From Amazonocrinis nigriterrae CENA67 (GTDB lineage: Bacteria > Cyanobacteriota > Cyanobacteriia > Cyanobacteriales > Nostocaceae), in contig NZ_JAECZC010000111.1 in the NCBI RefSeq assembly GCF_016056305.1, forward strand, positions 92,127 to 156,126: a stretch of DNA of 64,000 bases. Direction: 5' to 3'. The notes beneath the pieces were generated by a model. It searched no databases. It was not told the DNA's origin and worked only from the letters and a program-made list of their open reading frames with translations. Each line of letters begins with the position of its first letter. Positions within the stretch are counted from its first letter, which is position 1. The position numbers and the translations under genes were made by a program. Positions 30,337-48,280 of the stretch are shown piece after piece.

Positions 30337-30432
30337 TAATTTTTCCTCACTATATTAAATACTTCTATTAGTCATAGCATCGAGAAATGGGTAAGTAACA
30401 TCTCCCTCATCCCCCTTATCTCCCTTATCTCC

Positions 30433-30744
30433 TTACTGGGGTGGTTTTTTCTTAGAAACGGTCAATGTAGGTAGAGTCGGACTAGATGAGCGAGAGGGCA
30501 AGTAATGTTGTACTACAGGCTCCTCTGGGATAGAACGGCGTTGCTGGACACGCCATAACTTAAAGGCGAGGGCTACACCTGCTGTCCCCAAGCCAAAGGC
30601 AAACAATGACCAGCTATCATCAAATCCACCAATCAGCGCATCTACTACACCTACAGTTATCAATACACTGACTAGCGGGTCTTTCCTGTAGGTTGACTTC
30701 AAAAAACGAGGTAATACAGCATTCATCACAGCTTGGTTTATCAA
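30433..30744 (-). CDS. small membrane protein, function unknown
   Basis: A 103-aa protein with one or two membrane segments (DPLVSVLITVGVVDALIGGF; WSLFAFGLGTAGVALAFKLW) and a Pro/Ser-rich tail ending KKKPPQ. Resembles uncharacterised cyanobacterial proteins. It lies upstream of the WD40 gene on the same strand, separated by ~97 bp of repeat-containing sequence, so cotranscription is uncertain. Confidence 0.6.
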   Translation of the reverse strand: MINQAVMNAVLPRFLKSTYRKDPLVSVLITVGVVDALIGGFDDSWSLFAFGLGTAGVALAFKLWRVQQRRSIPEEPVVQHYLPSRSSSPTLPTLTVSKKKPPQ

Positions 30745-30971
30745 GTTTACCTTTTATGTAAAGTTACCGAGAATACCTCACCTAAGAGTTATCCTGCTGA
30801 TAAGAAGCATCTAAGATATTAGAATTTTCTTCAGTAAGGTCACAAGTGTAGTAATTAACTAGCTTGCGTGTATGATTTGCATTTGGTAGCTAAGACTGAC
30901 ACTTTTGGGTGTGCTTCATAGTTATAGACGGCAAATCATGGGAGGTAGTTCACTTTTGATCGATATAGTCA

Positions 30972-30998
30972 AAACCAGCTAGATATTCCAGCTGGTTT
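30972..30998. terminator. hairpin AAACCAGCT...AGCTGGTTT
   Basis: Perfect 9-bp stem with a 9-nt loop followed by a T/C-rich run, between the HLIP gene and the upstream region of the small membrane protein gene. Probably ends the HLIP transcript from the right, or is a repeat. Confidence 0.45.
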
Positions 30999-31110
30999 CA
31001 ACTCTTCTAATTACTAGCTTACAACTTACTGAAACAGCACAGGGGTGCAAGGGTGCAGGGGAGATAAGGGAGAAATAACTTCTAACTCTTAACTCCTAAC
31101 TCCTAACTTT

Positions 31111-31176
31111 TGTAGGGGCGGGTTTACCTGGCATATCTTGTTGCTACTTGAATTTCGGGCTTAACCCGCCCCTACA
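31111..31176. repeat. TGTAGGGGCGGGTT inverted repeat
   Basis: TGTAGGGGCGGGTTTA (31111-31126) is nearly the exact reverse complement of TTAACCCGCCCCTACA (31161-31176). Preceded by CTAACTC heptamers. This is a MITE-like dispersed repeat; TGTAGGGGCG also opens the palindrome at 45667. Confidence 0.7.
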
Positions 31177-31199
31177 ACTTTGTGCCTCAGCACTCAGCA

Positions 31200-31370
31200 C
31201 TATTTCAGTCCGAGCCATGATAGCACGCCTTGATTGGTGACGTACTCAATCAACACCATCAAGCCGAAACCAATCATTGCGGCTCGACCATTCAATCGTT
31301 CAGCATATTCATTAAAGCCAAATTTAGGCTCTTCCAGTTTGGGGGTAACTGTTGGTTGTGGTTGTGTCAT
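31200..31370 (-). CDS. high-light-inducible chlorophyll-binding protein (HLIP)
   Basis: A 56-aa ORF on the minus strand, too short for routine calling: MTQPQPTVTPKLEEPKFGFN, then EYAERLNGRAAMIGFGLMVL, then IEYVTNQGVLSWLGLK. The helix AERLNGRAAMIGF is the ELNGR-A-M chlorophyll-binding signature of single-helix HLIP/SCP proteins, with Glu and Asn as pigment ligands. These proteins protect photosystems and chlorophyll intermediates in thylakoid membranes under high light. ATG 31370, stop TAG at 31200. Confidence 0.93.
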   Translation of the reverse strand: MTQPQPTVTPKLEEPKFGFNEYAERLNGRAAMIGFGLMVLIEYVTNQGVLSWLGLK

Positions 31371-31720
31371 GTTCTGTGAAACCTCTTTTTGGCAAACGGG
31401 ATTTGATAGCGAGAAGTCTAGGCGGAGGTTGACTCCAAGCAGGACTTTGGTGATTTTGAGCTAATACAGCACCTGAACCCCAAGATAGCTTTTTCAAGCT
31501 AGCTGTTTCCTGGGAGGAAGCTCTGCAACAGCTATCTTAACAAATTGTAATTATTCTTTATATATTGTAGAAATGTGACGTTAATAGTCAAGAGTAAGAC
31601 TTTGCAGCTTCTATAGTCGGTTTGAGAACGTTAGGGTGGTATGTAGTTAAGCAGAATACGGAAGTGCTTGTCTCTTACTGGCAGGCTAAAGTGGAACAAA
31701 AAATTTATTAGAGGCGGTAT
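31371..31720. other. intergenic region between HLIP and ald, with bistable hairpin
   Basis: No ORF. AAGATAGCT (31482-31490) pairs with AGCTATCTT (31530-31538), or alternatively AGCTGTT (31501-31507) with AACAGCT (31527-31533); the two 3' arms overlap, so the pairings compete. It must contain promoters for the divergent HLIP and ald genes. No confident -10 box assigned. Confidence 0.3.
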
Positions 31721-32812
31721 ATGGAAATAGGCGTTCCCAAGGAAACCAAGGATCAGGAATTTCGGGTAGGTTTGAGTCCTTCTAGCGTGCGGGTGTTGCG
31801 AGAAAATGGTCATACCATCTTTGTCCAGACACAAGCAGGTGATGGTGCTGGATTCACAGATGATGATTATGCAAGTGCTGGGGCGGAGATTGTCTCTACA
31901 CCAGAAGCGGCTTGGAATCGGGAGTTAGTGATCAAAGTTAAAGAACCACTGGTAAGTGAATATAAATTTTTGCAAAAGGGACAGATATTATTTACTTATC
32001 TGCATTTGGCTGCCGATCGCAAATTAACCGAGAGTCTAATTGATTGTGGCATTTGTGCGATCGCCTACGAAACTGTAGAGTTACCTGGTGCTAACAAGTT
32101 ACCTCTACTTACCCCCATGAGCGTGATTGCTGGTCGGCTATCAGTACAATTTGGGGCGAGGTTCCTAGAACGCCAACAAGGTGGTAGAGGCGTTCTTTTG
32201 GGCGGCGTTCCTGGAGTCAAACCGGGTAAAGTAGTGATTTTAGGTGGGGGTGTTGTCGGCACAGAAGCAGCTAAAATTGCCGTGGGCATGGGTGCGATCG
32301 TGCAAATTTTAGATGTAAATGTCGAGCGTTTATCCTACCTAGAAACTTTATTTGGTTCTAGAGTCGAATTGCTTTACAGCAACTCTGCCCATATCGAAGC
32401 CGCCGTGAAAGAAGCTGACTTACTGATTGGTGCTGTTTTAGTCCTTGGACGTAGGGCACCAATACTAGTATCCCGCGAATTGGTCAAACAAATGCATCCT
32501 GGTTCTGTAATTGTTGATGTCGCCGTTGACCAAGGCGGTTGTGTAGAAACTTTACACGCCACATCCCATACAAATCCAGTGTACTTAGAAGAAGGTGTAG
32601 TACATTATGGTGTACCTAATATGCCAGGAGCAGTACCTTGGACAGCAACTCAAGCACTTAATAACAGTACACTGCCTTACGTCGTCCAATTGGCAAATTT
32701 GGGCATCAAGGCACTAGAAGTTAACCCAGCATTAGCCAAGGGTGTGAATGTACAAAATCATCGCTTAGTGCATCCTGCTGTGCAAGAAGTGTTCCCTGAT
32801 TTAGTCAGTTAG
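31721..32812 (+). CDS. ald: alanine dehydrogenase
   Basis: A 363-aa protein, standard length. N-terminal MEIGVPKETKDQEFRVGLSP with substrate-binding Arg/Lys, KVKEPLVSEYKFL with the second Lys, and FTYLHLAAD with the catalytic His. The Rossmann fold shows VVILGGGVVGTEAAKIAVGM; later VAVDQGGCVETLHATSHTNP and HYGVPNMPGAVPWTATQALN. It catalyses reversible NAD-dependent deamination of L-alanine to pyruvate and ammonia. In diazotrophic Anabaena it contributes to nitrogen-fixing growth. Monocistronic. Confidence 0.96.
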   Translation: MEIGVPKETKDQEFRVGLSPSSVRVLRENGHTIFVQTQAGDGAGFTDDDYASAGAEIVSTPEAAWNRELVIKVKEPLVSEYKFLQKGQILFTYLHLAADRKLTESLIDCGICAIAYETVELPGANKLPLLTPMSVIAGRLSVQFGARFLERQQGGRGVLLGGVPGVKPGKVVILGGGVVGTEAAKIAVGMGAIVQILDVNVERLSYLETLFGSRVELLYSNSAHIEAAVKEADLLIGAVLVLGRRAPILVSRELVKQMHPGSVIVDVAVDQGGCVETLHATSHTNPVYLEEGVVHYGVPNMPGAVPWTATQALNNSTLPYVVQLANLGIKALEVNPALAKGVNVQNHRLVHPAVQEVFPDLVS

Positions 32813-33122
32813 ATTTTAGTAAATTTAGATTACTCATAGTTCCTGTAAAACACCGTCTCTAACCCCTCCTCGTTTGTGAGGCTACAGGGTGGTTTCATAC
32901 GAAAAAAGAAAAATATGAAAGCCTCGATTTCTCGTTTTGAACCATAGATTTTGACCTTTCTCCAAACCTCTCCCACGGGGGAGAGGCTTTGATACCTGGT
33001 TTTAATTTTTCTCTGATGGAATGAAACCACCCTGTTCTTCATTTGAGGACTGACGCAAAAATTGCCAAAAAGCTTAATTTATCGAACCGCCAAGACGCCA
33101 AGAAAGCCAAGAGTTCGTAGTA

Positions 33123-34333
33123 GCGCGACCGGGCTAAAATAGTGCATTAGATGTAGCAGAAACAGACAAAGAAAATGGGACGTGGACGAACAAACAAGAT
33201 TCGCTTAAGTGCAGAACAAAGACAACACTTGGAAGCGCTCAGCCGTAATGGTCATGCACCAGTGAAAAAAATTCTGCACGCACGTGTACTGATCATGTCG
33301 GATGAGGGTGAATATGGGCAGCAACGCTGGAATGACCAGCAGATAGGGGCAGCACTAGGATTACATCGTAATAGCGTTGCCCGCATCCGCTCATCATTTT
33401 TAGAGCAAGGAGAACAAGCAGCCCTCAACCGCAAGCCGCGTCAGACACCACCCGTGCCACAGAAATTAGATGGAGAAAAACAGGCGCATCTGATAGCTAT
33501 ATGCTGTTCACCACCGCCGGATGGTAGGACTCGTTGGACGATGAAGTTATTAGTAGACGAACTCAAAGCGCGAAGTATCGTCACGCAAATAGGTCGTGAG
33601 ACTGTGCGATGTACACTCAAAAAAACGAATTGCGCCCGTGGAAAAAGCAGCGTTACTGTATTCCCGAACGCGATGCGGCACGCTTTGTAGCACAGATGGA
33701 AGAAGTCTTAGACATTTATACCAGCCAGCACACAGAAGATGAACCACTCATCTGCATGGATGAAGCGGCTTACGAGTTAAAAGCGGACGTGTTTGAGCCA
33801 ATACCAATGACACCCGCAAGCGATCGCAAAGAAGATTACCATTATGAACGGCATGGTGTGCGTGCGTTATTTATATTTTTTGACCCCTTGAGAGGATGGC
33901 GGCGCGTGAGTAGTCGTGAGCATCGTACTCGCGTCGATTGGGCACTGGAAGTTCGCCAACTTCTAGATGTAGACTATCCCCACGCGCGCAAAGTCAAGTT
34001 AGTTTGTGACAATCTCAATACTCATCACATTGCCTCACTGTATGAAGCTTTTCCTGCAACTGTTGCTCATCGATTAGCTCGCCGCTTAGAAATTCACTAT
34101 ACCCCTCGTAACGGTAGTTGGTTGAATGTTGCCGAGATTGAGTTAAGTGTCCTTTCTCAACAATGTCTTGACCGTCGTATTTCCTCTGCCACCGAGTTAG
34201 AAAAGGAGTTATCTGCCTGGCAGAACCAGCGTAATCGCACGAATAGCCAAGTTCAATGGCGCTTCACAACAGAGGATGCCCGTATTAAACTCAAACACCT
34301 CTATCCTATTGCACTATTTTAGCCCGGTCGCGC
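33123..34333 (+). mobile_element. IS630-family insertion sequence
   Basis: Terminal inverted repeats: left GCGCGACCGGGCTAAAATAG from 33123, and right CTATTTTAGCCCGGTCGCGC ending 34333, continuing inward to TGCA. Each end is flanked by TA (33121-33122 and 34334-34335), the target duplicated by IS630/Tc1-type elements. The 1.2-kb size and a DDE transposase in two overlapping frames fit. Ends are perfect, so the copy is recent and may be mobile. Confidence 0.88.
33175..34322 (+). CDS. IS630-type transposase, made by -1 frameshift
   Basis: Two overlapping frames. Frame 0 from ATG 33175 gives an HTH domain (DQQIGAALGLHRNSVARIRS) and runs to TVRCTLKK. At the seven-A run 33619-33625, a -1 shift continues NELRPWKKQRYCIPERDAA in the second frame (ending 34322), which holds the DDE residues: Asp in CMDEAAYELKAD, Asp in VCDNLNTHH and Glu in NVAEIELSVL. 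The joined protein is about 380 aa. IS630-type elements commonly use such slippage. Without it the two parts have separate binding and catalytic domains. Confidence 0.85.
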
Positions 34334-34422
34334 TAGTAGAGTGTGCGTAAGTCCTACATTTGTGAGGCTACGGTATACATACAAGTCAAAAAAAACCATT
34401 GCCATAAAAGATTTGAGTTTGG

Positions 34423-34455
34423 TAGTGGCGTGGCAAGCTTAAAATAGTGCATTAG
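34423..34455. mobile_element. degenerate IS630-type terminal repeat
   Basis: TAGTGGCGTGGCAAGCTTAA then AATAGTGCATTAG resembles the left end of the intact IS (TAGCGCGACCGGGCTAAAAT then AGTGCATTAG). No transposase is attached, so it is a solo end or relic of an earlier insertion next to cydB. Confidence 0.5.
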
Positions 34456-34664
34456 GAAAAAAGGCAATCATCTTTCAGGGCGATGGCATCTTTTACTTTA
34501 CTGAGTGATAGGTGCGATCGCCTGAAGCTTTCGAGCAAGGGAATCTGCTGTGGCTGTTCCTCCATCATGGGCAATCTTAGAAAAAAGTAATATATGTAAC
34601 TTTTGGTCTATTTGCACCAGTCGTGGAACGTTTATCCTAAAAAAGCACAACATGAGGAGGTTGT

Positions 34665-35678
34665 ATGGAGACGCTAAAGTATTTTCTGCCACAGGTATGG
34701 TTTGTGATTTTAGCTCTCTTTCTCTTCCTGTATGTAATGCTTGATGGGTTTGATTTAGGAGTAGGTATATTGTCTCTTACCTCCTCTGATGAAAAACGCC
34801 GTAGCGTTTTAATGACCAGCTTAAGCAACATTTGGGATGCTAATGAAACCTGGCTGGTACTGATGGGGGGAGGTTTATTTGGTGCGTTTCCCTTAGCCTA
34901 CAGCACAATTTTAAATGCTTTGTATATCCCAATTATCATCATGATATTTGGGTTCATATTTCGTGCTGTGGCATTTGAATTTCGGGAGTTAGCAACGCGA
35001 AAATTATTTTGGAATTTTGCTTTTGGTGCTGGAAGTTTTACCGCTGCACTCGGTCAAGGATTTGCTCTGGGTGCTGTGTTAAAAGGTATTTCTGTTGATG
35101 AGCAAGGACACTTTATTGGCACAACTTGGGACTGGTTAAGTATTCCAACAGTATTGGTGGCTTTGACGTTGATTCAAGGATATGTGTTGATTGGCTCAAC
35201 TTATCTGATTTGGAAAACCACAGGAGAGTTACAAGAAACCCATTATCAGACTGCAAAAATTGCTGCTTGGACAACATTACTTGGGGCAATTTTCATCACG
35301 ATTACCACACCAATATTTTATGAAAGTGCAAGGTCACGCTTATTTGCACCACCCCTAGTTTTTATCTTTGCACTCATTCCACTGCTGGGAGTAATATTAA
35401 TTTCTCAACTGCTTACTAGTCTGACTCGAAAACAAGAAAGAGCGCCTTTGATCTGGACTATTCTGTTGTTCGTGTTGTCGTTTTTTGGCTTAGGATTAGT
35501 TGTATTTCCTTACATCATTCCCCCTCAGATTACCATCTATGAAGCATCTGCTGATCCTAGTTCGTTGGTAATCATGTTGATATTTATTGGTTTCCTCATT
35601 CCCGTGATGCTGTTTTATAACCTTTATCAATACATTGTCTTCCGAGGTAAGGTGACTGGTGGTCACTACGGAGAATAA
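34665..35678 (+). CDS. cydB: cytochrome bd-type quinol oxidase subunit II
   Basis: A 337-aa protein with about eight to nine membrane helices. Starts LPQVWFVILALFLFLYVMLD, then GFDLGVGILSL, ANETWLVLMGGGLFGAFPLA and FRAVAFEFRELATRKLFWN, all hallmark CydB/AppB stretches. An excellent RBS (AGGAGG at 34654-34659) precedes ATG 34665. CydB pairs with CydA, which carries all the haems; CydA is not adjacent here. Upstream instead are an IS relic and an intact IS630-type element. It functions only if a CydA is made from elsewhere. Confidence 0.92.
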   Translation: METLKYFLPQVWFVILALFLFLYVMLDGFDLGVGILSLTSSDEKRRSVLMTSLSNIWDANETWLVLMGGGLFGAFPLAYSTILNALYIPIIIMIFGFIFRAVAFEFRELATRKLFWNFAFGAGSFTAALGQGFALGAVLKGISVDEQGHFIGTTWDWLSIPTVLVALTLIQGYVLIGSTYLIWKTTGELQETHYQTAKIAAWTTLLGAIFITITTPIFYESARSRLFAPPLVFIFALIPLLGVILISQLLTSLTRKQERAPLIWTILLFVLSFFGLGLVVFPYIIPPQITIYEASADPSSLVIMLIFIGFLIPVMLFYNLYQYIVFRGKVTGGHYGE

Positions 35679-35725
35679 AGATAAATAGCCGTCATCAATT
35701 GCCTATACTAAAACAAATTAAAATT

Positions 35726-35779
35726 CTTTGTGTCTTGGTGTCTTTGTGGTTCAATATTTTTTCCCACCAAGACACAAAG
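35726..35779. repeat. long inverted repeat after cydB
   Basis: CTTTGTGTCTTGGTG (35726-35740) and CACCAAGACACAAAG (35765-35779) form a perfect 15-bp stem with a 24-nt loop. Could be the cydB terminator or a MITE-like repeat. The rest of the 403-bp gap shows no gene. Confidence 0.6.
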
Positions 35780-36080
35780 GCACAAAATATATCAGGGTAC
35801 GTTAGGTTACAATTAGGATTTGCGTGCTAACTGCTATGTGTGATTATATATACTCATTTTAGTTCGGTTGCCATGCATAGAAGTGGTATTATTTGAATTT
35901 TCGCCTAAAGCTTGAAACTTCTCCCCTGCTCTATCAAGTCGAGTACTAAAGGGTGGTGACATACCATAACAGTCTTGACTATATCTATGTAACTATATTT
36001 TAGTGGCTAAAATAATCAAGCCTTAACAATTTCCAATCATCAGGCAGTCCATTGCCTTCTCAAACAGATAACATTTAAAT

Positions 36081-37847
36081 ATGAACGCTACACAAGAACA
36101 ACTAAGAGTAAAATTTGAGCAGGCTTTGGTCGCGGCTTTTGGCGCTGAATACGCTGGCGTAGATCCCATTTTGGTTACTGCTAGCAATCCTAAATTTGGT
36201 GATTATCAGGCGAATGTGGCTTTATCCTTAAGTGGAAGGTTAGGAAAGCAACCAAGAGCGATCGCAGCTGCTATTGTTGAGAAGCTAGATGTATCAGAAA
36301 TCTGCAAACCGCCAGAAATAGCCGGGCCTGGTTTTATCAATCTCAAGCTGAAAACAGAATATTTAGAAGCGCAACTACAAGCTATTCAAGCAGATTCCAG
36401 GCTAGGAATTCCAGCGACAAAAACGCCTCAGCGGGAAGTTGTAGATTTTTCTAGCCCGAATATTGCTAAAGAAATGCACGTCGGACACTTGCGTTCTACA
36501 ATTATTGGCGATTCTATCGCCCGTGTTCTGGAATTTCAAGGACATGATGTCCTACGGTTAAATCATGTAGGTGATTGGGGTACGCAGTTTGGTATGTTAA
36601 TTGCCTACTTGCGGGAAGTTTACCCCGAAGCGCTGACTACTGCTAATGCTTTAGATATTGGAGATTTAGTTACTTTTTATCGCAAAGCTAAATTGCGGTT
36701 TGACGCAGATGAAGCTTTCCAAGAGACTGCACGGCAAGAAGTGGTAAGATTACAAGCCGGTGCGGAAGATACACTTCATGCTTGGAAACTATTGTGTGAA
36801 CAATCACGCCAAGAGTTTCAAGTAATTTATGATTTACTAGATGTCAGTGTTATAGAAAGAGGAGAATCTTTCTACAATCCTTTACTGCCAACAGTGGTAG
36901 AAGATTTAGAAAAATCCGGTTTACTAGTAGAAAATCAAGGTGCGAAATGTGTTTTTGTAGAAGGGTTTACTAACAGAGAAGGTGAGCCTTTACCCTTGAT
37001 TGTGCAAAAATCTGATGGCGGTTATAACTACGCTACAACAGATTTAGCAGCTCTACGCTACCGGATTCAAAAAGATGAGGCAAAACGCATAATTTATGTA
37101 ACAGATGCAGGACAAGCAAACCACTTTGCCCAATTCTTTAAAGTAGCAGGCAAAGCAGGATGGATTCCTGAAGATGTGGAACTTGTGCATGTACCTTTTG
37201 GTTTGGTGTTAGGAGAAGATGGTAAGAAATTCAAAACTCGTTCTGGAGACACAGTACGGTTGCGGGATTTGTTAGATGAAGCAATTACTCGTGCGCGTGC
37301 AGACTTAGAAATTAGATTAAAAGAAGAAGAACGCGAAGAAACTGAAGAATTTATCAATAAAGTTGCTGAAGTAGTTGGTATTAGCGCAGTTAAATATGCG
37401 GACTTAAGCCAAAACCGCACGAGTAACTACATCTTTAGTTACGACAAAATGTTGGATCTCAAAGGCAATACAGCACCCTATATGCTATATGCTTATGCAC
37501 GAATTCAAGGTATTAGCCGTAAGGGGGAAATTAACTTTGAGGAGTTGGGAGATCATGCCAAAATTCTGTTGCAACATGAAACAGAATTGGCTTTGGCAAA
37601 GTACTTGCTTCAACTAGATGAGGTAATTAATACTGTAGAGCAAGATTTATTGCCTCATCGTTTATGTGAGTATTTGTATGAACTGAGTAAAAAATTTAAT
37701 CAGTTTTACGATCGCAATCAAGGAGTTCGGGTGCTGGACGCAGAAGAACCGTACCGTACATCCCGCTTAGTTTTATGTGATTTGACTGCGAGAACCCTGA
37801 AATTGGGACTATCTTTGCTAGGAATTCAAGTCCTAGAAAGGATGTAG
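36081..37847 (+). CDS. argS: arginyl-tRNA synthetase
   Basis: A 588-aa class I synthetase. The N-terminal Arg-tRNA-specific additional domain has [17 protein letters not shown]. The HIGH-type motif is HVGHLRST in [20 protein letters not shown]. Further marks are [18 protein letters not shown] and [17 protein letters not shown] in the KMSKS-equivalent region. The DALR anticodon-binding domain is at the C-terminus ([14 protein letters not shown], ending GIQVLERM). Charges tRNA-Arg in the cytosol. A hairpin terminator follows. Confidence 0.97.
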
Positions 37848-37877
37848 AAAGCTATTGATTGATAACTGATGACTCTC

Positions 37878-37911
37878 AAACCCTTGTGGTTACTTCAACC
37901 AACAAGGGTTT
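37878..37911 (+). terminator. terminator hairpin after argS
   Basis: AAACCCTTGTGGTT pairs with AACCAACAAGGGTTT (one bulge) 30 bp after the stop; T-rich sequence follows. Confidence 0.65.
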
Positions 37912-37929
37912 CAGTTGTTCTACGGCTTG

Positions 37930-38064
37930 TCCTCTAACAATTAGTACTTGTCTCGATGCATATTTGACTTCTAGTAAGCGATCGCGCTATCCATGTTAGT
38001 ACTTTTTCAACCAGCGATCGATAGTTGCTTTATCATACCTTAAAGGTTCTGCCAGTTTGTGTTT
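37930..38064 (-). pseudogene. transposase N-terminal (HTH) relic
   Basis: The reverse frame reads KHKLAEPLRYDKATIDRWLK, KY-stop-HG-stop-RDRLLEVKYASRQVL, then IVRGQAV. RYDKATIDRWLKKY...LLEVK fits the recognition helix and following loop of IS630-type transposases (HRxTVQRWLxxY...GLLEIK). Two stops and missing flanks show a decayed piece. The remaining 38065-38523 region is AT-rich with no gene seen. Confidence 0.4.
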
Positions 38065-38523
38065 GCTGGTCACTTGACCGCTTTTAAGCTAGTAAAGCAT
38101 GTGTTACTTTTCTTTACTGCTTGCACTTACAGCACATTGGAGTGCTTTTCCCAATTCTTCTTGAATTTCTGAAATGTCGGTTTCAAATGGACAGCTGGTC
38201 AATGTCCTAAATCTAACTATTTATAGTTTGACGTAGTTTAGCGTAACTTCACACAGAAGTGATCTATCTCCGTGTAATAACCCATGACAATAGATAATAA
38301 AAATACGTATTATAAAAATAATCACTCATCTATCTCTAAGCACCAGAAGTAATAGACACATTACAAGAGGTTATTGAGTATGATGCTATGGATTTTATTG
38401 AGGTAAATACTGCATTAGCAGAACATACTGTCTAGATAATCAATCAAAAAAATTTTGATTGATTCCAATTTTCAATTTTTTAAATATTTTCCTAAATAAC
38501 CTAAGCCAAAACAGAGAATAGTT

Positions 38524-39606
38524 ATGAATAATAACTTTAATAAGTTAGCTGAATCTGTATTACAGATAAAAATAGGCTCAACAGTACAAGCTAAAAATAA
38601 TTTAAAGGATTTAATTAAATCTTTACAAAATATAGATAATGATTTCTTAGATTTACAGTATTTTCTTTTCTCCTCAGCTTTACTTAAACGAATTGACGGT
38701 TACACTGCTGAGAATATTTATTTGCAAAACTATGATGAAATTTCACAGATTGACCTTTTTCAGTTACTTTCTACACATGTTCCTTTCGTTTCGTTGACAC
38801 ATCCCATAGCAAATGAGTTGATTTGTCAAATTTTAAGTCAATTAACTACTGTTACACTATTAAATATAGGTATAGGTAAAGGTTTACAAGAAGTTGATTT
38901 GCTGAAGCGTTTAGTCAAAAAGGGGATAAAACTTCAACAATTGACTATTGTAGGTATAGAACCTTCTCAAGAAAATTTATTAGAAGCTGAATCTAATATT
39001 TTAAAAGCATCTGAAGAACTTGATTTCGATTTAAAATTTATTCCATTTCCAAAGCTAGTTGAAGATTTAAGTGAACGGGAGTGGTTATTTTTAGCTAGTT
39101 TAAATGGAGATATAATCATTAATGAAGCATTTTCTTTACACCACATAGTTGACAGAAAACAAGGATATGATACTCGTCAAGAGGTGATTTTAAAAATTTC
39201 TCGATTAAATCCTATGGCATTTATTCTTGTTGAGCCTAATTGGGATCATAACATTTCTGACTTATGGTATCGTTTCAAAAATGCTTGGATAAATTACCGA
39301 TTATTGTTTGAAGCTCTTTCCCAAGTAGATATGCCCAAAAAAATGAAATTTTTGATAATTAACAATTTTTTTGGCAGAGAGATTGAAGATGTATTAGGTA
39401 ATTGTGAAGAAACTCGTTGTGAAAGACATGAATCAGTGGATATCTGGTTACAGAGGCTTTATAAGGAAGGTTTTAAGCCTTTTGATTTAAGTACTATCAA
39501 TTTAACTAATTTTTCTCATCCAGTGGGTAATGTTGTCACCAGAGATAGTTACATAGGAATAGAATGTAACAATACTGCATTAATAGCTATTATCGCTGTT
39601 CAATAA
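38524..39606 (+). CDS. bacterial GRAS-domain (Rossmann methyltransferase-like) protein
   Basis: A 360-aa protein. Motifs match the GRAS fold known from plant DELLA/SCARECROW proteins and a few bacteria. At ~108-130, TVTLLNIGIGKGLQEVDLLK is the SAM-type loop. At ~199-208, IINEAFSLHHIVD is the VNxxFxLHHL motif. Then NPMAFILVEPNWDHNISD, RFKNAWINYRLLFEALSQ, FFGREIEDVLGNCEETR, and ERHESVDIWLQRLYKEGFKP, the plant RHExxxxWxxRxxxAGF block. Bacterial GRAS proteins are thought to be methyltransferases acting on small molecules; the substrate is unknown. Asn/Lys-rich coding suggests foreign origin or fast evolution. A multidomain kinase follows 456 bp later. Confidence 0.8.
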   Translation: MNNNFNKLAESVLQIKIGSTVQAKNNLKDLIKSLQNIDNDFLDLQYFLFSSALLKRIDGYTAENIYLQNYDEISQIDLFQLLSTHVPFVSLTHPIANELICQILSQLTTVTLLNIGIGKGLQEVDLLKRLVKKGIKLQQLTIVGIEPSQENLLEAESNILKASEELDFDLKFIPFPKLVEDLSEREWLFLASLNGDIIINEAFSLHHIVDRKQGYDTRQEVILKISRLNPMAFILVEPNWDHNISDLWYRFKNAWINYRLLFEALSQVDMPKKMKFLIINNFFGREIEDVLGNCEETRCERHESVDIWLQRLYKEGFKPFDLSTINLTNFSHPVGNVVTRDSYIGIECNNTALIAIIAVQ

Positions 39607-40062
39607 AAACACAAAAATAATCTGCATATCTATGATAATTCGTGTTTAATTAAAATCCAAATACCTGTAATCAAAAAATCTACTTTGTCTATGTTACTAG
39701 ATATGCTTGATAAATTTCAATATAACCGCTATTTTTAACTCGCAAAATTTGGATATAAAGTAGCATATCAATACTAATACCTGTAATTTCAATTTATCTA
39801 TGACTATATTCAACAAGCTATCTACTCCATAATGACGATGGGAGGAAATAAACCAATCACTCTAAAATGGCAATTTTCTCTTAGCGAATATACCAAAACA
39901 AGAGTAAAATTATAAAATTTTTGAGAATTTTATCTAAACTTATTCATCAAACAACTGGCGTTAATCAATAACTATGTATAATCTTAAAAACAGTGATAAT
40001 TAATGAATTTTAATAAATATAAATTATCAATAATCTAAATAAAAATTATTTAATTTGGAAAT
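39607..40062. other. AT-rich gap before the kinase gene
   Basis: 456 bp, rich in A and T; I see no ORF, strong hairpin or RNA gene. It presumably holds the promoter of the giant kinase gene. Confidence 0.4.
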
Positions 40063-43000
40063 ATGATACTTTCTTCTAGCAGCTTACCTGGCTATCAATT
40101 GAGCGAATTACTTTACGAAAGCTCTAGAACATTAGTATATAGAGGAAAGCGGAAAATTGATGACCTACCTGTAGCAATCAAGCTGCTAAAAGGTTTTTAT
40201 CCCACCTTTACGGAACTAATACGGTTTCGTAACCAATATACAATTGCCAAAAATTTTAAAATATCAGGAATTATTGAGATATATTGCTTAGAATCTTACC
40301 ATAATAGTTATGTCTTAGTAATGGAATACTTTGGTGGAATATCCTTGGCAGAGTATATTTATACTCATAAACTGGAACTCAAGGAGTTTTTTTCCATAGC
40401 CTTGCAACTAACAGAAATTTTAGAGAATCTCTACCTTGCCAAAGTTATTCATAAAGATATTAAACCTGCAAATATTCTGATTAATCCAGATACAAAAAAA
40501 ATTAAACTTATTGATTTTAGTATTGCTTCATTACTACCTAAAGAAACACAAAATATTCAAAATCCCGGTGTATTGGAGGGTACATTAGCTTATTTAGCAC
40601 CAGAACAAACTGGACGGATGAACCGGGGAATTGACTATAGAGTAGACTTTTACGCATTGGGAGCTACATTTTTTGAATTGCTGACGGGACAACTACCTTT
40701 TATCAGCAATGACCCTATGGAATTGGTACATTACCACATTGCTAAAGAACCACCTTTAGTTTGTGCGTTAAATTTAGATATTCCTTTAGTATTAGCGCAG
40801 ATAATTAAGAAACTATTAGCAAAGAATGCTGAAGACCGTTATCAAAGCGCATCGGGTCTGAAATATGATTTAGAAATTTGTCTAAATCAATTACAGAATT
40901 TAGGCAAAATTAAGGAGTTTAAAATTGGACAACGAGATTTATGTGAACAATTTCTCATTCCAGAAAAGTTATACGGACGAGAAAATGAAGTTCAGCAACT
41001 AATCTCAGCATTTGAACGCATTTCGTATGGATACAGCGAACTTATCTTAGTGGCTGGGTTTTCTGGTATTGGTAAGACTGCGGTAGTTAACGAAGTACAT
41101 AAACCCATTGTTAAGCAACGGGGCTATTTCATTAAAGGTAAGTTTGATCAATTCAATCGTAATGTTCCTTTTTCTGCCTTTGTGCAAGCCTTTCGTGATT
41201 TAATGATGCAATTGTTAACTGAAAGTGACCAGCAACTACAACATTGGAAGTCAAAAATTCTCAAAGCTGTAGCTGAAAGTGGACAAGTTTTGATTGAGGT
41301 AATTCCTGAATTAGAACAAATTATTGGTCAACAACCACCCTTAGCAGAACTTTCAGGAACTGCTGCACAAAATCGATTTAATTTAATTTTTCAAAAATTC
41401 ATTCAAGTATTTACTACAAAAGAACATCCCTTAGTAATATTTTTAGATGATTTGCAATGGGCTGATTCAGGCTCATTGCAACTCGTACAATTATTAATGA
41501 ATGAATCGAATCAAAGTTATTTATTATTGATTGGAGCATATCGACATAATGAAGTTTCACCAGTTCATCCTTTAATTTTAACGTTAGATAAAATTAGTAA
41601 ACTAACTGGAAGAGTTAACAGTATAAATTTATTACCGCTCAGCCTATTTTTCTTAAATCAATTAGTTGCTGATACTTTATGTTGTGCGGAACACATAGCA
41701 CAAAACCTCTCACAATTAGTATATCAAAAAACTAAAGGTAATCCATTTTTTACAACGCAACTGCTCAAGAGATTACATCAAGATGGGTTGATTGAGTTTA
41801 ACTTTCAGGAACGCTGTTGGCAATGTGATATTACACAAGTTAACCAGCAAACCTTAACTGATGACATTGTTAAATTCATGGTATCCCAATTAACAATGTT
41901 ACCTCAAGCAACTCAGAATGTGTTGCAGTTAGCAGCTTGTATTGGTAATCAGTTTGATTTAGCAACATTAGCAATTATTTCCAAGCGATCGCAAATAGAA
42001 ACAGCAGCTGATTTATGGAAAGCATTGCAGTCAGGATTGATTTTACCTCTGAATGAAAATTATAAATTTTATGTAGGGCAAGAACATCAAGCACTTACCT
42101 CAAAAACCTCAGAGATTGTTGTATATAAATTTCTGCATGATCGTGTCCAACAAGCCGCTTATTCCCTAATTCCTGAACAAGAGCGATCGCTCGTTCACTA
42201 TCAAATTGGAAAATTGCTACTCCAGCAACTTTCACCTAAAGCTATAGAAGAGAAAATCTTTGCAGTAGTCAATCAGTTAAATTATGGTATTGAACTAATT
42301 ACCGACCAAACCGAACATGATGCACTAGCAGAACTTAACCTGTGTGCTTGTCGCAAAGCTAAAACTTCTACTGCTTATCGAGCTGCTTACGAGTATGCCA
42401 CAGTTGGTCTTAATCTGATGGAAAGCAAAGCTTGGCAACAACAATACCAAATGTCTTTGACTTTTCACGAACTCGCCACAGCAGTAGCTGCACTCTGCGG
42501 TGAATTTGAGCAGATGAATCAATGGATTGATATTGTGATTCATCATGCCAAAATGCCTTTAGATCAAGTAGGCGTTTACATCATTAAAATACAAGCATTA
42601 ACTTCTCAAAATCAGCTTTTAGAAGCAATATCTAGCGGTCAGGCAATTCTTCAAGAATTGGGTGTACAGTTTCCTGAACATCTTACTTTAGAATATATTC
42701 AGCAGGCAGTAAAGGAAATTAACTCCTTGCTAGGCGAGCGACCCATTGAGGATTTATTTTACTTAAAACCAATGGTAGATGCTGAAAAGCTGGCAATGAT
42801 ACAAATCGCTGCAAGTATCATGACAGCTTGTTATGTAAGTGGTTCGCCTGTATTTCCATTACTAAACACATTACAGGTAAATTTATCGCTCCAGTATGGC
42901 AACAGTCTTACTTCAGCTTATAGTTATGCATGTTATGGGGTTTTTCTCAACATATTTCTACAGAATGTCACAGCAGCCACTCAATTTGGTCGATTAGCTT

Positions 43001-45483
43001 ACCGTCTGGCTTTAGAAGCAGAAGCCAAAAACATTCGCCCTGAAACTTTTATTCCCATTGCCTTGTTTTTGCACCATCGTCAGTCTCATTTGCGAGAAAC
43101 CTTGCCCATTTCACAACAAGGCTATCAAGCAGGATTAGAAACAGGTAAATTAAAGGATGCCGCACAAAATGCGAATATATTTTGTCTTAATTCCTACTGG
43201 TGCGGTCAACTTTTAGTGGAATTAGAATCCCAAATTTTTGCTTATCGTCAACAATTACTCAAACTTAATCAGCTGACAGCAGCTAACTATTGTTCAATCT
43301 ATTGGGAAACAACGCTCTTTCTATTGGGAAATCCAGACAAAATCGAAATCTCATTTGAAAATCCCTTAAATGAAGAAAAGCTAGTTTCTCAAGCACTACT
43401 TTCTAACGATCTGTGGCGAATATTTATTTTCAGCGTGCATCAAGCAATGTTGAGATTTCTGCTGGGAGACATTGACGGAGCCAGTATAGATGCTCTTCGA
43501 GCCAGGAAGTATATAGCCGCAGGCAAAGGAACTATTGCTGAAGCTGGTTTAAATTTTTATGACTCTTTGATTATCCTGGCGACAGTGCCTAATTCTCAGG
43601 CTGAGTTGGAAACTCAACTGCAACGAGTTCAGGAAAATCAAGCCAGGTTGCAATATTGGGCAGAGTACGCCCCGATGAACTATTTGCATAAGTGGCAGTT
43701 AGTAGAAGCTGAACGCCATCGTATATTAGATCAAAAGATTGAAGCAATTGATCTGTATGATCGCTCTATTTCTCTGGCTCAAGAAAACGGTTATATTCAA
43801 GAACAAGCGATCGCCAACGAAGTAGCAGCTAAATTTTATCTAGACTGGGGCAAAGAAAAAATAGCTCAAGCATATATGCAGGAAGCTTATTACTGTTATG
43901 CTCGATGGGGAGCCAAAGCAAAAACAGATGATTTGGAAAAACTTTATCCCCATCTACTGCAACCGATCCTGCAACAACAAAAGCTCAACAATATAGAAGC
44001 TATAAATTCGCTTACTCACACTTCAAATCAAAATTACACACTCAATTCTAGTACTAACAGCACTATTATTTCTGATGCCCTAGATTTTGCCTCTGTCCTC
44101 AAAGCAGCACAAATCATTTCTAGCAACATCCAATTAGATGAATTAATTACTAGCTTCACTAAAATTATCTTAGAAAATGCTGTGGCAAAAAAATGTGTGC
44201 TAATTTTACCTCATCAAGGTGAATGGCAAGTTAGAGCCATTACCTCTATCAACTCTCAAGATAATCTCACTACAGAAATTCTTGATTCACTACCATTAGA
44301 TGCTTGCCAAGAGGTTCCTATAAAACTCATTCAATATGTTAAACGAACATTAGGAACTGTTGTCCTTGACAATTGTCAAACTGAAATTAATGGTGTAATT
44401 GATGATTATCTGCTCCAGCATCAACCGCAGAGTGCTTTGTGTACCCCAATTCTCAATCAAGGTAATTTAGTTGGCATTCTTTATTTAGAAAATTCTTTAA
44501 TTCAAAGTGTATTTACACCTGAGCGGCTAGTAATTATTAACTTACTTTGTAGCCAAGTTTCAATTTCTCTAGAAAATACTCGACTTTATCAACAGGCTCA
44601 ACAAACACAATTACAACTTGTCCAAAATGAAAAAATGTCAGCTTTGGGTAATTTAGTTGCGGGTGTTGCTCATGAAATGAATAATCCTTTGGGTTTTATT
44701 TTTTCTAGCCTGAAACAAGCTCAACCTAACTTCTCTGATTTAATTGCTCACTTAGAATATTATCGTCAACGTTTCCCCAATCCAGGTGATGATATTATTA
44801 AGCATGGCGAGGAAATCGAGATAGATTATCTTGTCGAAGATTTACCACAGATGCTTTCATCAATGGAAGTAGCCTGTGAACACCTGAGAAATATCAGCAC
44901 TTCGCTCAGAATTTTTTCACGAGCAGATTTAGAGTACAAAGTTGCTTGTAATATTCATGAAGGTATTGATAGTACTATTTTAATTCTCAAACATCGACTC
45001 AAAGCAAATCAGCATCGTCCAGCAATTGAGATTATTACCAATTATGGAAATTTACCTCTAGTTGAATGCTTTCTTGGGCAACTGAATCAGGTATTTATGA
45101 ATCTGTTAGCTAATGCTATTGATGCTTTAGAAGAATCAAATGATCAACGTAGTTATCAAGAAATTAAAAGTAACCCTAATCGCATTCAAATTGCGACATA
45201 CTTAGAAGCTAATTACGCCAAAATATCTATTGCTGATAATGCGAAGGGAATGACTAAAGAAGTAAAACAGAAAATTTTCGACCATTCATTTACTACAAAA
45301 GGCGTGGGTAAAGGTACAGGATTAGGATTAGCGATCGCTCGTCAAATTATAGTAGAAAAACACAACGGAACGATTCAAGTTAACTCAAATTTAGGTGAGG
45401 GAACTGAGTTTATAATTACTCTTCCAGTAAAAGCAAAATTTTCACCAACAGCCATAACAAAAGCATCGCCACTAGCAAGCTAG
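40063..45483 (+). CDS. giant Ser/Thr kinase - AAA ATPase - GAF - histidine kinase
   Basis: An 1806-aa multidomain signalling protein. Residues 1-270 are a Hanks-type kinase: AIKLLKG Lys, catalytic loop HKDIKPANILI (usual Arg replaced by Lys), then IDFS in place of DFG and LAPEQTGRMNRGIDYR. Residues ~300-600 are an AAA/NACHT-like ATPase with Walker A (AGFSGIGKTAVV) and Walker B (VIFLDDLQWAD). A long helical TPR-like region extends to ~1340. A GAF domain lies at ~1345-1510. The histidine kinase starts with H-box VAGVAHEMNNPLGF (~1530), then NLLANAIDALEE and GKGTGLGLAIARQI. This architecture is that of the HstK family in Anabaena. No membrane segment, so cytoplasmic. Confidence 0.93.
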   Translation: MILSSSSLPGYQLSELLYESSRTLVYRGKRKIDDLPVAIKLLKGFYPTFTELIRFRNQYTIAKNFKISGIIEIYCLESYHNSYVLVMEYFGGISLAEYIYTHKLELKEFFSIALQLTEILENLYLAKVIHKDIKPANILINPDTKKIKLIDFSIASLLPKETQNIQNPGVLEGTLAYLAPEQTGRMNRGIDYRVDFYALGATFFELLTGQLPFISNDPMELVHYHIAKEPPLVCALNLDIPLVLAQIIKKLLAKNAEDRYQSASGLKYDLEICLNQLQNLGKIKEFKIGQRDLCEQFLIPEKLYGRENEVQQLISAFERISYGYSELILVAGFSGIGKTAVVNEVHKPIVKQRGYFIKGKFDQFNRNVPFSAFVQAFRDLMMQLLTESDQQLQHWKSKILKAVAESGQVLIEVIPELEQIIGQQPPLAELSGTAAQNRFNLIFQKFIQVFTTKEHPLVIFLDDLQWADSGSLQLVQLLMNESNQSYLLLIGAYRHNEVSPVHPLILTLDKISKLTGRVNSINLLPLSLFFLNQLVADTLCCAEHIAQNLSQLVYQKTKGNPFFTTQLLKRLHQDGLIEFNFQERCWQCDITQVNQQTLTDDIVKFMVSQLTMLPQATQNVLQLAACIGNQFDLATLAIISKRSQIETAADLWKALQSGLILPLNENYKFYVGQEHQALTSKTSEIVVYKFLHDRVQQAAYSLIPEQERSLVHYQIGKLLLQQLSPKAIEEKIFAVVNQLNYGIELITDQTEHDALAELNLCACRKAKTSTAYRAAYEYATVGLNLMESKAWQQQYQMSLTFHELATAVAALCGEFEQMNQWIDIVIHHAKMPLDQVGVYIIKIQALTSQNQLLEAISSGQAILQELGVQFPEHLTLEYIQQAVKEINSLLGERPIEDLFYLKPMVDAEKLAMIQIAASIMTACYVSGSPVFPLLNTLQVNLSLQYGNSLTSAYSYACYGVFLNIFLQNVTAATQFGRLAYRLALEAEAKNIRPETFIPIALFLHHRQSHLRETLPISQQGYQAGLETGKLKDAAQNANIFCLNSYWCGQLLVELESQIFAYRQQLLKLNQLTAANYCSIYWETTLFLLGNPDKIEISFENPLNEEKLVSQALLSNDLWRIFIFSVHQAMLRFLLGDIDGASIDALRARKYIAAGKGTIAEAGLNFYDSLIILATVPNSQAELETQLQRVQENQARLQYWAEYAPMNYLHKWQLVEAERHRILDQKIEAIDLYDRSISLAQENGYIQEQAIANEVAAKFYLDWGKEKIAQAYMQEAYYCYARWGAKAKTDDLEKLYPHLLQPILQQQKLNNIEAINSLTHTSNQNYTLNSSTNSTIISDALDFASVLKAAQIISSNIQLDELITSFTKIILENAVAKKCVLILPHQGEWQVRAITSINSQDNLTTEILDSLPLDACQEVPIKLIQYVKRTLGTVVLDNCQTEINGVIDDYLLQHQPQSALCTPILNQGNLVGILYLENSLIQSVFTPERLVIINLLCSQVSISLENTRLYQQAQQTQLQLVQNEKMSALGNLVAGVAHEMNNPLGFIFSSLKQAQPNFSDLIAHLEYYRQRFPNPGDDIIKHGEEIEIDYLVEDLPQMLSSMEVACEHLRNISTSLRIFSRADLEYKVACNIHEGIDSTILILKHRLKANQHRPAIEIITNYGNLPLVECFLGQLNQVFMNLLANAIDALEESNDQRSYQEIKSNPNRIQIATYLEANYAKISIADNAKGMTKEVKQKIFDHSFTTKGVGKGTGLGLAIARQIIVEKHNGTIQVNSNLGEGTEFIITLPVKAKFSPTAITKASPLAS

Positions 45484-45666
45484 AGTAATCAGCTGTTAAG
45501 CACTTAATTTACATGTTGATACCGCAGGGGAGCAGAGGTGCAGAGTATAAATTATTTGTATCACGAATTTAGTGAAATAGTATTAAATGTGTAACAGCTT
45601 AGAAGTTGGAGTTCTTCAGTTTTAACTAATACCATTTCCAAAATATTTGGAACACATGAATCGACT

Positions 45667-45694
45667 GTAGGGGCGTACAGCTGTACGCCCCTAC
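45667..45694. repeat. perfect 28-bp palindrome
   Basis: GTAGGGGCGTACAG followed directly by its reverse complement CTGTACGCCCCTAC. Lies 24 bp before the CRISPR array; shares TGTAGGGGCG with the repeat at 31111. Confidence 0.7.
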
Positions 45695-45718
45695 GAGAGT
45701 ATCTGTTTCCATTCGATT

Positions 45719-46988
45719 GTTTCAATCCCCTTGCAGGGTATTAGAAAGATGAAACGTGTTTATATTTCATCATTGACTCGGCGGCTGGGCGTTTCAATCC
45801 CCTTGCGGGGTATTAGAAAGATGAAACTTTAATTACACCATTAGGTATAGAACATCGCACAGTTTCAATCCCCTTGCGGGGTATTAGAAAGATGAAACCA
45901 GTAACGAATTATAGGTAATTTGTCCAGTTAAAAGTTTCAATCCCCTTGCGGGGTATTAGAAAGATGAAACTTCGTCCAAGCAAATCTCTACCCGTGCAAA
46001 TAATTGGTTTCAATCCCCTTGCGGGGTATTAGAAAGATGAAACTCCTTAATTTTTGCCATATACAAAATAGTTACAAAGTTTCAATCCCCTTGCGGGGTA
46101 TTAGAAAGATGAAACAACAGCTTTAGAACAACAGGAAGCAAAATTTAATAAGTTTCAATCCCCTTGCGGGGTATTAGAAAGATGAAACTTAAAATAATGG
46201 ATTCTAACAATTAGATAGCGATGTTTCAATCCCCTTGCGGGGTATTAGAAAGATGAAACTCAGTGACAGCATTAACTACATCAATTGGCGCTTGCGTGTT
46301 TCAATCCCCTTGCGGGGTATTAGAAAGATGAAACTTGTATTTTAATACTTTAATTTCACGTCTCATCGTGGTTTCAATCCCCTTGCGGGGTATTAGAAAG
46401 ATGAAACGTGTCACAATTGATAGTTTAAGAAATTATTATATGTTTCAATCCCCTTGCGGGGTATTAGAAAGATGAAACATAATATTAGTGTCGAGAATAT
46501 TGCAAAAAAGCAACAGTTTCAATCCCCTTGCGGGGTATTAGAAAGATGAAACTTAATGAATCGTTAAAATCTTCATTGTATTTTGGGTGTTTCAATCCCC
46601 TTGCGGGGTATTAGAAAGATGAAACTTTGATGTGGCATCGCTTTATCCATCAATATGTTGTTTCAATCCCCTTGCGGGGTATTAGAAAGATGAAACCTCT
46701 TGGTTTCATCATCAAAGGGCAAGTAAAACTGGTTTCAATCCCCTTGCGGGGTATTAGAAAGATGAAACGACTTGGGCTAAGAAAGCTGAGTTCTATAATG
46801 CAGGTTTCAATCCCCTTGCGGGGTATTAGAAAGATGAAACCTAAACCTGGTTGTACTTCCCCAAAACCTATCACCAGTTTCAATCCCCTTGCGGGGTATT
46901 AGAAAGATGAAACGTCTAACGCAGGTATTCCACTACTAACACCCTTAAGCTGTTTCAATCCCCTTGCGGGGTATTAGAAAGATGAAAC
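45719..46988 (-). CRISPR. CRISPR array, 18 repeats and 17 spacers
   Basis: Eighteen 37-nt repeats beginning GTTTCAATCCCCTTGCGGGG and ending AAAGATGAAAC on the plus strand. Starts: 45719, 45791, 45862, 45934, 46007, 46079, 46152, 46223, 46298, 46371, 46442, 46516, 46589, 46660, 46732, 46804, 46877 and 46952. Spacers are 34-38 nt and all different. Repeats are identical except the first (GCAGGG for GCGGGG). On the minus strand the repeat ends ATTGAAAC, the usual cyanobacterial 8-nt crRNA handle, and the variant repeat is then leader-distal, so transcription is leftward. CCCCGCAAGGGG forms the repeat hairpin. No cas gene in the window; subtype cannot be fixed. Confidence 0.97.
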
Positions 46989-47350
46989 TCTGCCCTCTGA
47001 AATCATTACTAAACAAGCTTCCTGTTAGGGTTTTTGGCAGGGAAGAAATTTTGGTTATTTTCAACCGCTCTTATTGCAAAACACTTGGAGTTATCCTAAC
47101 TTTTGAAACGCTGTAATTATTGCTTTGTCAAGGTTCTGGCGATTTTGGCGGGACTCCAGGGATTTTGCCCCCGCTTTCCCCTGCCAAACATCAAGCTGCT
47201 TACAACATCATAAAATGATTATTCGTTATTGTCGAGCTTTTATGAACTAATGTAGCGGCAATTCATAACTAGTCTCGAAGTTAATCAAGCGAAACCTCAC
47301 ATAAAATGAGTATAAAGACGCAACTCGCACTTTCATAGGAGTATCCAGCT
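46989..47350 (-). promoter_or_regulatory. probable CRISPR leader (right flank)
   Basis: Non-coding DNA between the leader-proximal repeat and the GTG of the next gene. Leftward orientation inferred from the array places the leader and new-spacer end here. Contains T-rich stretches and no ORF. The promoter of the gene at 47351 must also lie here. Confidence 0.45.
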
Positions 47351-48010
47351 GTGCAGCCGGACTTAATAGGCTTGGAAATTAGCAAGGGAGAATTGAGACG
47401 TTTGACTGGATTCGATCCAGATGATGTATTTCGACCTTCTATTATCAAAGACCGTGAAAAACGATTAGGGTTTTTGATCAATGAAATGTTTTTGTCGCTA
47501 GCCCTAACTCCAATTATTGTTGGTGCTATTTATGCGTTTATTATTCTACCAACAATTGGTTCTTCTATTAAACTAGGAATTCTCTTACTAATTATAGTGC
47601 CCATTGCTGTGGTCGTGGGGCGATCGCTATGGCGGCGGTTCACTTGTCCCAAAGCACTGACAATACTTTTAGATGAAGTCGATAAATATCATCACGTCAT
47701 CAAAGCCATAGATATTAATGACCAATTGGCAATATCCACAAACTCCCAAAACAGTATAAATGAGCGAGAGCAAATCATCGCCGCCTTACAACTGATTCGG
47801 GAAAATTTAGTACTAGCTTTAAAAAGTGAACGAATTTTGCGAGATAATAAACAACTACTTGCTAATAACCAAGAGTTATTTGTGAATAATTTAGCTAGCC
47901 TGCAAGCTTTGCAAGCTAGCAGCCAAGCCAGCGAATATAGTCAACTTTTAAATCAATCTTTACAAATTGCCCTTGATGTGCAGGCAGAAATCAAAAAATT
48001 ACAGCATTGA
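47351..48010 (+). CDS. membrane protein with coiled-coil tail, function unknown
   Basis: A 219-aa protein with GTG start. Residues ~48-95 contain two membrane helices (LALTPIIVGAIYAFIILPTI; GILLLIIVPIAVVVG). The C-terminal half is a helical, Leu/Asn/Gln-rich coiled coil (ALQLIRENLVLALKSERILR; LASLQALQASSQASEYSQLL). The N-terminus ELRRLTGFDPDDVFR is soluble. Resembles uncharacterised cyanobacterial proteins. It is next to the CRISPR leader but is not a recognisable Cas protein. Confidence 0.6.
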   Translation: MQPDLIGLEISKGELRRLTGFDPDDVFRPSIIKDREKRLGFLINEMFLSLALTPIIVGAIYAFIILPTIGSSIKLGILLLIIVPIAVVVGRSLWRRFTCPKALTILLDEVDKYHHVIKAIDINDQLAISTNSQNSINEREQIIAALQLIRENLVLALKSERILRDNKQLLANNQELFVNNLASLQALQASSQASEYSQLLNQSLQIALDVQAEIKKLQH

Positions 48011-48131
48011 ACCACAGTAGTGTACTGATTTTCGGTGCGTTAGAACTAACGTTCATAACGCACTCTACTATATTAAAGTCAAAGAAGTAATATCAAGTCC
48101 GGTTTATTTAGTTATGATTCCCACAGTCATT

Positions 48132-48200
48132 GCACCCCACCCCTAACCCCTCCCCGTGAACGGGGAGGGGAAACAAAGCGTAGCTTTGATGGGGTGGGGT
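48132..48200. repeat. nested inverted repeat of CCCCTCCCC type
   Basis: The inner stem is CCCCTCCCCG with CGGGGAGGGG over a 4-nt loop (48147-48170). The outer stem is ACCCCACCCC (48134-48143) with GGGGTGGGGT (48191-48200). A dispersed cyanobacterial repeat. Confidence 0.65.
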
Positions 48201-48280
48201 TCTTAGGGTTTAAATAGGTAATAAGCAAAGGACTTGATATAACTCCAAAACATAAAATCCCAAATCTAAAATCCTATTAA

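Follow-up and report, generated by a model that had tools for sequence, protein, structure and literature searches.

A rare cyanobacterial relative of the plant GRAS regulators retains a complete SAM-binding motif and is a predicted small-molecule methyltransferase

We conclude that the protein encoded at positions 38524..39606 (+) of the window (the whole 64,000-nucleotide stretch of Amazonocrinis nigriterrae CENA67 DNA that was analyzed) genuinely belongs among the rare bacterial relatives of the plant GRAS regulators. This protein, P0001, is a further member of a known category, bacterial GRAS proteins having been known since 2012. It is probably a stand-alone class I SAM methyltransferase whose N-terminal part is helical; the predicted substrate is a small carboxylate metabolite, possibly an amino acid or the matching alpha-keto acid. 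Plant GRAS proteins run gibberellin signaling, root patterning and nodulation, and to our knowledge no bacterial member has a demonstrated function. The intact SAM motif of P0001 makes it an assayable candidate enzyme.

The open reading frame occupies exactly 38524-39606 (+), starts with ATG, contains no internal stops and encodes 360 residues; because Scytonema sp. NIES-4073 carries an intact version of it at 57% identity, we exclude a chance ORF. A single Pfam-A family (E ≤ 0.001) was returned for P0001, GRAS (PF03514; E 3.1e-36, 125.5 bits against a cut-off of 27), with residues 22-338 aligned to profile positions 19-345 of 374, while NCBIfam gave no family up to E 1. Searching PDB sequences with phmmer (up to E 1) recovered 12 distinct sequences, all of them plant GRAS proteins by name (DELLA, SCL3, SCL7, SCARECROW and NSP2), the best being the DELLA protein RGA (1.4e-11). 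The GRAS profile found P0001 as the sole match in its own genome and had no match in 14 control genomes. A first-pass annotation of this DNA had proposed a bacterial GRAS protein and had named the Pfam GRAS profile search and structure prediction as checks; the proposal is borne out by the sole Pfam family, the PDB matches and, as described below, the fold, the residue alignment and the trees, and Pfam assigned P0001 to GRAS only, with no other methyltransferase family.

Structure prediction gave the same answer. The AlphaFold model of P0001 (m620aa5719d18), built from seven sequences, has a pLDDT of 85.4 and a pTM of 0.86. In VIA-align, the eight plant GRAS entries listed match the model over the whole chain (Z 34.6-37.3, 337-351 residues at 2.2-2.8 Å, 18-20% identity), among them SCL3 (37.3), RGA (36.6), SCL7 (36.2) and a SHORT-ROOT/SCARECROW entry (35.0). 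The remaining 42 of the 50 matches shown have Z values from 18.2 to 15.7 and include many SAM- or SAH-bound methyltransferases, such as CmoA, YecO, CysG, BelI, EgtD, SxtA, SgvM and histamine methyltransferase. Foldseek returned 12 GRAS rows (TM 0.76-0.84 by query length), followed by HEN1 and a methyltransferase with bound phenylpyruvic acid.

To compare individual residues, we aligned 28 bacterial and four plant rows, with the divergent L003 protein of genome G037 (30.5 bits) excluded and L004, a sub-cut-off match with stops in frame, dropped. SAM-binding motif I of P0001 (GxGxG; residues 114-120, NIGIGKG, 38863..38883, +) has each of its glycines in 28/28 bacterial rows; the central Gly is present in none of the four plant rows, which have K, S, V and N there instead. 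Position 114, Asn in P0001, is Asp in 16 and Asn in two of the first 18 rows. The acidic residue E146 (38959..38961, +), located where beta-2 ends, would by analogy with class I methyltransferases be the SAM ribose ligand; this position is E or D in 28/28 bacterial rows and G, H, P and G in the four plant rows. The complete SAM set (GxGxG plus the acidic residue) is therefore found in all 28 bacterial rows and in none of the plant rows. Judged by sequence, the SAM motif is kept in the compared bacteria and lost in the four plant proteins compared, and the plant-type loss is not seen in P0001, whose motif is complete.

The other conserved positions divide differently between bacteria and plants. 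In the motif IV region, residues 200-207 (NEAFSLHH, 39121..39144, +) contain a His-His pair, H206 and H207, that is invariant in the bacteria (28/28), with N200 kept in 23/28; none of the four plant rows retains more than one of these His. Residues 236-243, after beta-5 (VEPNWDHN, 39229..39252, +), include E237, present in 28/28 bacterial and 4/4 plant rows, as is R250. Residues 282-289 (FFGREIED, 39367..39390, +), which we take to be the plant PFYRE region, include E286 (28/28 bacterial rows, 1/4 plant rows). Residues 301-319 (RHESVDIWLQRLYKEGFKP, 39424..39480, +) presumably correspond to the plant SAW region; W308 and the neighboring R298 and E300 are found in 28/28 bacterial and 4/4 plant rows, so that the C-terminal R-x-E ... 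W signature of P0001 is common to all four plant proteins. NEAFSLHH, VEPNWDHN and RHESVDIWLQRLYKEGFKP, picked out in the first-pass annotation as GRAS landmarks, are all three in the translation. Plant GRAS proteins (DELLA/RGA, SCL3, SCL7, SCR and SHR) thus share with P0001 the whole-length fold and E237, R250, R298, E300 and W308, but in all four compared, unlike in P0001, the central Gly and the acidic residue of the ribose site are missing, and no plant row has both His.

Bacterial GRAS proteins were reportedly predicted to be small-molecule methylases with an intact SAM motif by Zhang, Iyer and Aravind (Bioinformatics, 2012). P0001, with its Rossmann methyltransferase fold and SAM motif, shows no difference in kind from the proteins of that study, in which, as stated in PMC4279901, Rossmann methyltransferase hits were found in bacterial GRAS. 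The first-pass annotation had taken up the same methyltransferase prediction, and the kept SAM motif and the Rossmann methyltransferases among the fold matches of the model both point to it. We have good confidence in predicted SAM binding and catalysis by P0001 and, at a slightly lower level, consider it rather likely that the substrate would be a small molecule and not a macromolecule. In the proposed mechanism, P0001 would bind SAM in its Rossmann domain and transfer the methyl group to a small carboxylate-bearing molecule.

Strong structural similarity to plant regulators would also suit a different role, in which P0001 serves as a regulator or adaptor like its plant counterparts, binding a ligand or partner proteins and acting with a neighboring giant kinase without methyl transfer. 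The four plant GRAS proteins are known regulators that lack the SAM site, and non-enzymatic ligand binding is possible in bacteria as well. A pure adaptor would not need a SAM motif, which is complete in 28/28 bacterial rows, and Pfam finds no DNA-binding domain in P0001; we regard this role as unlikely. In 9 of 28 loci (L005, L009, L011, L012, L025, L028, L040, L102 and the window), two-component genes are found no more than two genes away from GRAS, and on both Skermanella plasmids a PAS-domain sensor gene adjoins GRAS (the one scanned is a histidine kinase by Pfam), although genes of the two-component type are widespread in genomes of this kind and 9/28 is a raw count.

The giant kinase itself is real. 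The gene adjoining that of P0001 (40063..45483, +) encodes an 1806-aa hybrid kinase with Pkinase, AAA_16, GAF and HATPase_c domains, so the adjacency to a giant kinase described in the first-pass annotation holds. A functional link does not gain support: tblastn with the kinase gave no matches in the stretches around the GRAS genes of four cyanobacterial relatives (L005 to L008, the L008 stretch ending 1.4 kb after GRAS). In G037, a smaller gene beside the divergent GRAS-like gene matches the Ser/Thr-kinase part at 31%, and G004 has a kinase homologue (50%) near ArgS. We considered the giant kinase as a conserved GRAS partner and found no support for it: it is unmatched in L005 to L008, and the G004 homologue occurs in a genome with no GRAS match. 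The giant kinase lies in the same segment as GRAS, and a part for it in the mechanism is not supported.

Returning to P0001 as a methyltransferase, CysG, BelI and SgvM are among the closest known enzymes and share its Rossmann methyltransferase fold (Z 16.2-17.6) at only 12-18% identity. According to PMC11408123, CysG and BelI are metal-dependent carboxylate O-methyltransferases whose metal is held by His-His-Asp, and SgvM is described in PMC10502145 as an alpha-keto-acid C-methyltransferase. By analogy with CysG and BelI, the His-His pair of P0001 together with E237 or E286 could hold a metal. Equivalence between the metal-binding His-His and the invariant His-His of bacterial GRAS is putative, and many class I methyltransferases have an LHH following beta-4. 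Other structural matches (HEN1, TrmR and CmoA) are RNA-acting enzymes, which would fit an alternative in which P0001 methylates a macromolecule, RNA or protein, and not a metabolite. Many of the other structural matches are small-molecule enzymes, P0001 has no further RNA- or protein-binding domain in Pfam and its relatives are paired with PLP enzymes of metabolism, as detailed next, and we judge a macromolecular substrate quite improbable.

The gene neighborhoods of relatives bear on the substrate of the predicted methyltransferase. Across 28 loci (five cyanobacterial, two from Skermanella and 21 from the Bacteroidota phylum), a HisC-like aminotransferase adjoins or is fused to GRAS in 10/21 Bacteroidota-phylum loci, 0/5 cyanobacterial loci and 0/2 Skermanella loci. 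Nine of the first 11 Bacteroidota-phylum loci (L009, L010, L025, L026, L027, L028, L029, L040 and L034/L039) have a same-strand HisC-like PLP aminotransferase next to GRAS, and two (L030 and L041) are unlinked; in a second batch of 10 further unselected loci, the partner was present in one, as a fusion. In L034 the start codon of GRAS overlaps with the stop of the aminotransferase gene, and the aminotransferase frame of L010 is apparently split over two ORFs. The fusion is a single 719-aa ORF on a 453-kb contig (L093 6851-9010) with HisC-like Aminotran_1_2 at residues 12-326 and plant-like GRAS at 356-713 (315.6 bits). When the whole fused protein was compared with plasmid records, the matches in the best 30 of 815 records were all aminotransferases.

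We characterized the partner enzymes with two kinds of profile. Of the ten enzymes linked or fused to GRAS, six were compared with NCBIfam, which gave hisC as the best family in 6/6, at 217-244 bits where true HisC requires 276.55. A second profile, A3, was built from the nine linked enzymes (L034 among them, fused L093 excluded), so that their own high scores arise partly by construction: eight enzymes of the linked clade, themselves members of the profile, score 597-687 bits, partly for that reason, and the L093 enzyme scores 213.6 bits. The linked enzyme of G422 is distinct from a second HisC in that genome (667, partly by construction, versus 200 bits). An FSK stretch, which we assume holds the catalytic lysine, is kept in all nine A3 rows and in L093. 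In a tree of HisC-like enzymes (10 linked, 25 others), eight of the linked enzymes form one clade (100/100) and L039 and L093 fall elsewhere; a single clade of all ten was not recovered but is not rejected by the AU test (p-AU 0.195), so that the HisC-GRAS coupling may have had one origin or may have arisen repeatedly.

By analogy with this partner in relatives, the substrate of P0001 would be an amino acid or the matching keto acid, which we put forward tentatively, at somewhat less than an even chance. The pairing of a SAM methyltransferase with a PLP aminotransferase in the linked Bacteroidota-phylum loci resembles MrsA/MrsB, whose like make beta-methyl amino acids; the families are different, and the window has no such partner. 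No HisC-like partner was found at window positions 30000-49000, and no partner-type paralogue was seen in the five cyanobacterial carriers, in which the best A3 scores (158-183 bits) are similar in size to those of the GRAS non-carriers G001 (167) and G002 (178). Three A3 matches elsewhere in the window genome (177, 172 and 119 bits) were considered as a candidate partner and set aside, having counterparts in GRAS-less G001. Since no HisC-like partner of this type was seen in the window genome, substrate supply there would have to differ. The substrate class is uncertain because the partner is not adjacent to P0001, no partner-type paralogue was seen and the second batch had the partner in only 1/10 loci.

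The coupling could therefore be limited to some Bacteroidota-phylum lineages and be uninformative on the cyanobacterial substrate, a serious possibility that we rate just short of even. Its absence from the cyanobacterial (0/5) and Skermanella (0/2) loci, the single PLP clade holding 8 of the 10 linked cases and the different neighbors at other GRAS loci are as expected from such a limit. The coupling nevertheless recurs in two GRAS clades separated by the tree, once as a fusion, and pairs of linked GRAS proteins are as little as 24% identical and their PLP partners as little as 20%. One of the other neighbors is a phosphotriesterase-like cluster in three loci (one member scanned with Pfam). 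We also observed a family of ~130 aa beside GRAS in L094, L096, L097, L099, L100 and L101 (one member scanned, with no Pfam match), and a pyridoxal-dependent decarboxylase two genes from GRAS in L096 (3626-5161, by Pfam) and L097 (4264-5799, by clustering). The L003 contig of G037 contains no HisC-like gene. Its GRAS-like protein (L003 943-2040) scores 30.6 bits for GRAS, has further sub-cut-off matches to Methyltransf_28, 12, 25 and 31, and may form a bridge from GRAS to ordinary methyltransferases.

GRAS is thought in the literature to have reached plants from bacteria. We built a GRAS tree from the same 28 bacterial and four plant rows; the plants are all flowering plants, and the tool flagged long branches where they join. 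The plants group with fused L093 and stop-start-coupled L039 at 100/99, and the grouping persists at 100/99 when SCL7 and SCL3 are dropped. Without L093 the plants join L039 (100/99), and without L039 they join L093 (100/100). L093 alone is the plant sister at 95/84 in the full tree, but L039 alone as plant sister is not rejected (p-AU 0.145); the order of L093 and L039 collapses without SCL7 and SCL3. The window protein pairs with that of Scytonema (100/99); support for a grouping of the five cyanobacterial rows reaches only 75/74. We rejected a topology forcing the plants together with the window and Scytonema proteins (p-AU 1.6e-6); by this test, P0001 is not the sister of plant GRAS.

A fusion and operons of HisC and GRAS near plant GRAS in the tree offer a concrete substrate class and a route to the ligand that plants inherited, if any, and the coupling in relatives hints at a role for the family before plants acquired GRAS. 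We infer that the ancestral bacterial GRAS was an amino- or keto-acid methyltransferase module. Going further, GRAS may have begun as the methyltransferase half of a module shared with a HisC-like aminotransferase, the two enzymes together producing or recycling a methylated amino or keto acid; plants would have received a fused or directly coupled form, keeping the substrate pocket and losing the SAM site, and P0001 would be a stand-alone survivor that spread horizontally. We hold this scenario as a doubtful but real possibility; if it is true, the ligand ancestral to plant GRAS resembled an amino acid. We found no printed account of the HisC-GRAS fusion and operons or of their placement beside plant GRAS: a literature search, which did not cover Zhang et al. 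2012, returned no paper on GRAS with an aminotransferase or histidinol-phosphate aminotransferase, and we regard the observation as new unless that study reports the coupling.

Bacterial GRAS is rare, as the first-pass annotation had stated. GRAS matches occur in 3/60 relatives and 4/388 genomes of the order (both counts including the window genome and divergent G037) and in 2/386 genomes of the cyanobacterial phylum sample, its own genome included and one match below the cut-off; that sample has no match over the cut-off outside the window genome. The order, phylum and relative samples overlap. For the Bacteroidota phylum, we counted 7/298 in the order of G422, 4/375 phylum-wide, 1/244 in the class of G1113 and 11/208 in the order of G1164, each count including a center genome picked for having a GRAS match. 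Named relatives of P0001 come from Scytonema sp. NIES-4073, Symploca, a Nostocaceae MAG, Microseira wollei, a Chitinophagales MAG and a Saprospirales MAG; the contig-wide scan for relatives used two narrow patterns, so that phyla beyond those sampled are under-represented. Only two plasmid records, both Skermanella, were found, with P0001 as well as with the plant-like GRAS half of L093. A single pattern-based scan found no relatives of P0001 in IMG/VR, and none were present in phage records.

The GRAS gene has the lowest GC (0.296) and GC3 (0.205) among the 30 window ORFs compared (55 listed), and the giant kinase gene the second lowest of each. Both lie on a low-GC segment of ~7.8 kb (37875..45710, ends approximate, no strand assigned) that is absent from G001, a genome of the same genus (ArgS 96%). 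In G001, ArgS is followed by ~0.5 kb and then by a CRISPR array of 24 repeats, whereas in the window ~7.9 kb with GRAS and the kinase lies between ArgS and the window's own CRISPR array. From the rarity (4/388), the lowest GC and GC3 and the absence of the segment in G001, we conclude that the GRAS gene was probably gained by horizontal transfer, gain by transfer being likelier than loss in G001.

We made three further observations on the surrounding DNA. Directly downstream of the GRAS-kinase segment, the CRISPR array of the window (45719-46988) has 18 copies of a 37-nt repeat, from which the repeat of the 24-copy array after ArgS in G001 differs slightly. A promoter and terminator scan gave 10 promoter-like sites, compared with 12.1 in shuffles, and no terminator-like sites. 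Finally, two overlapping ORFs at 33175-34322 carry HTH and DDE_3 domains and are probably a single transposase in two frames.
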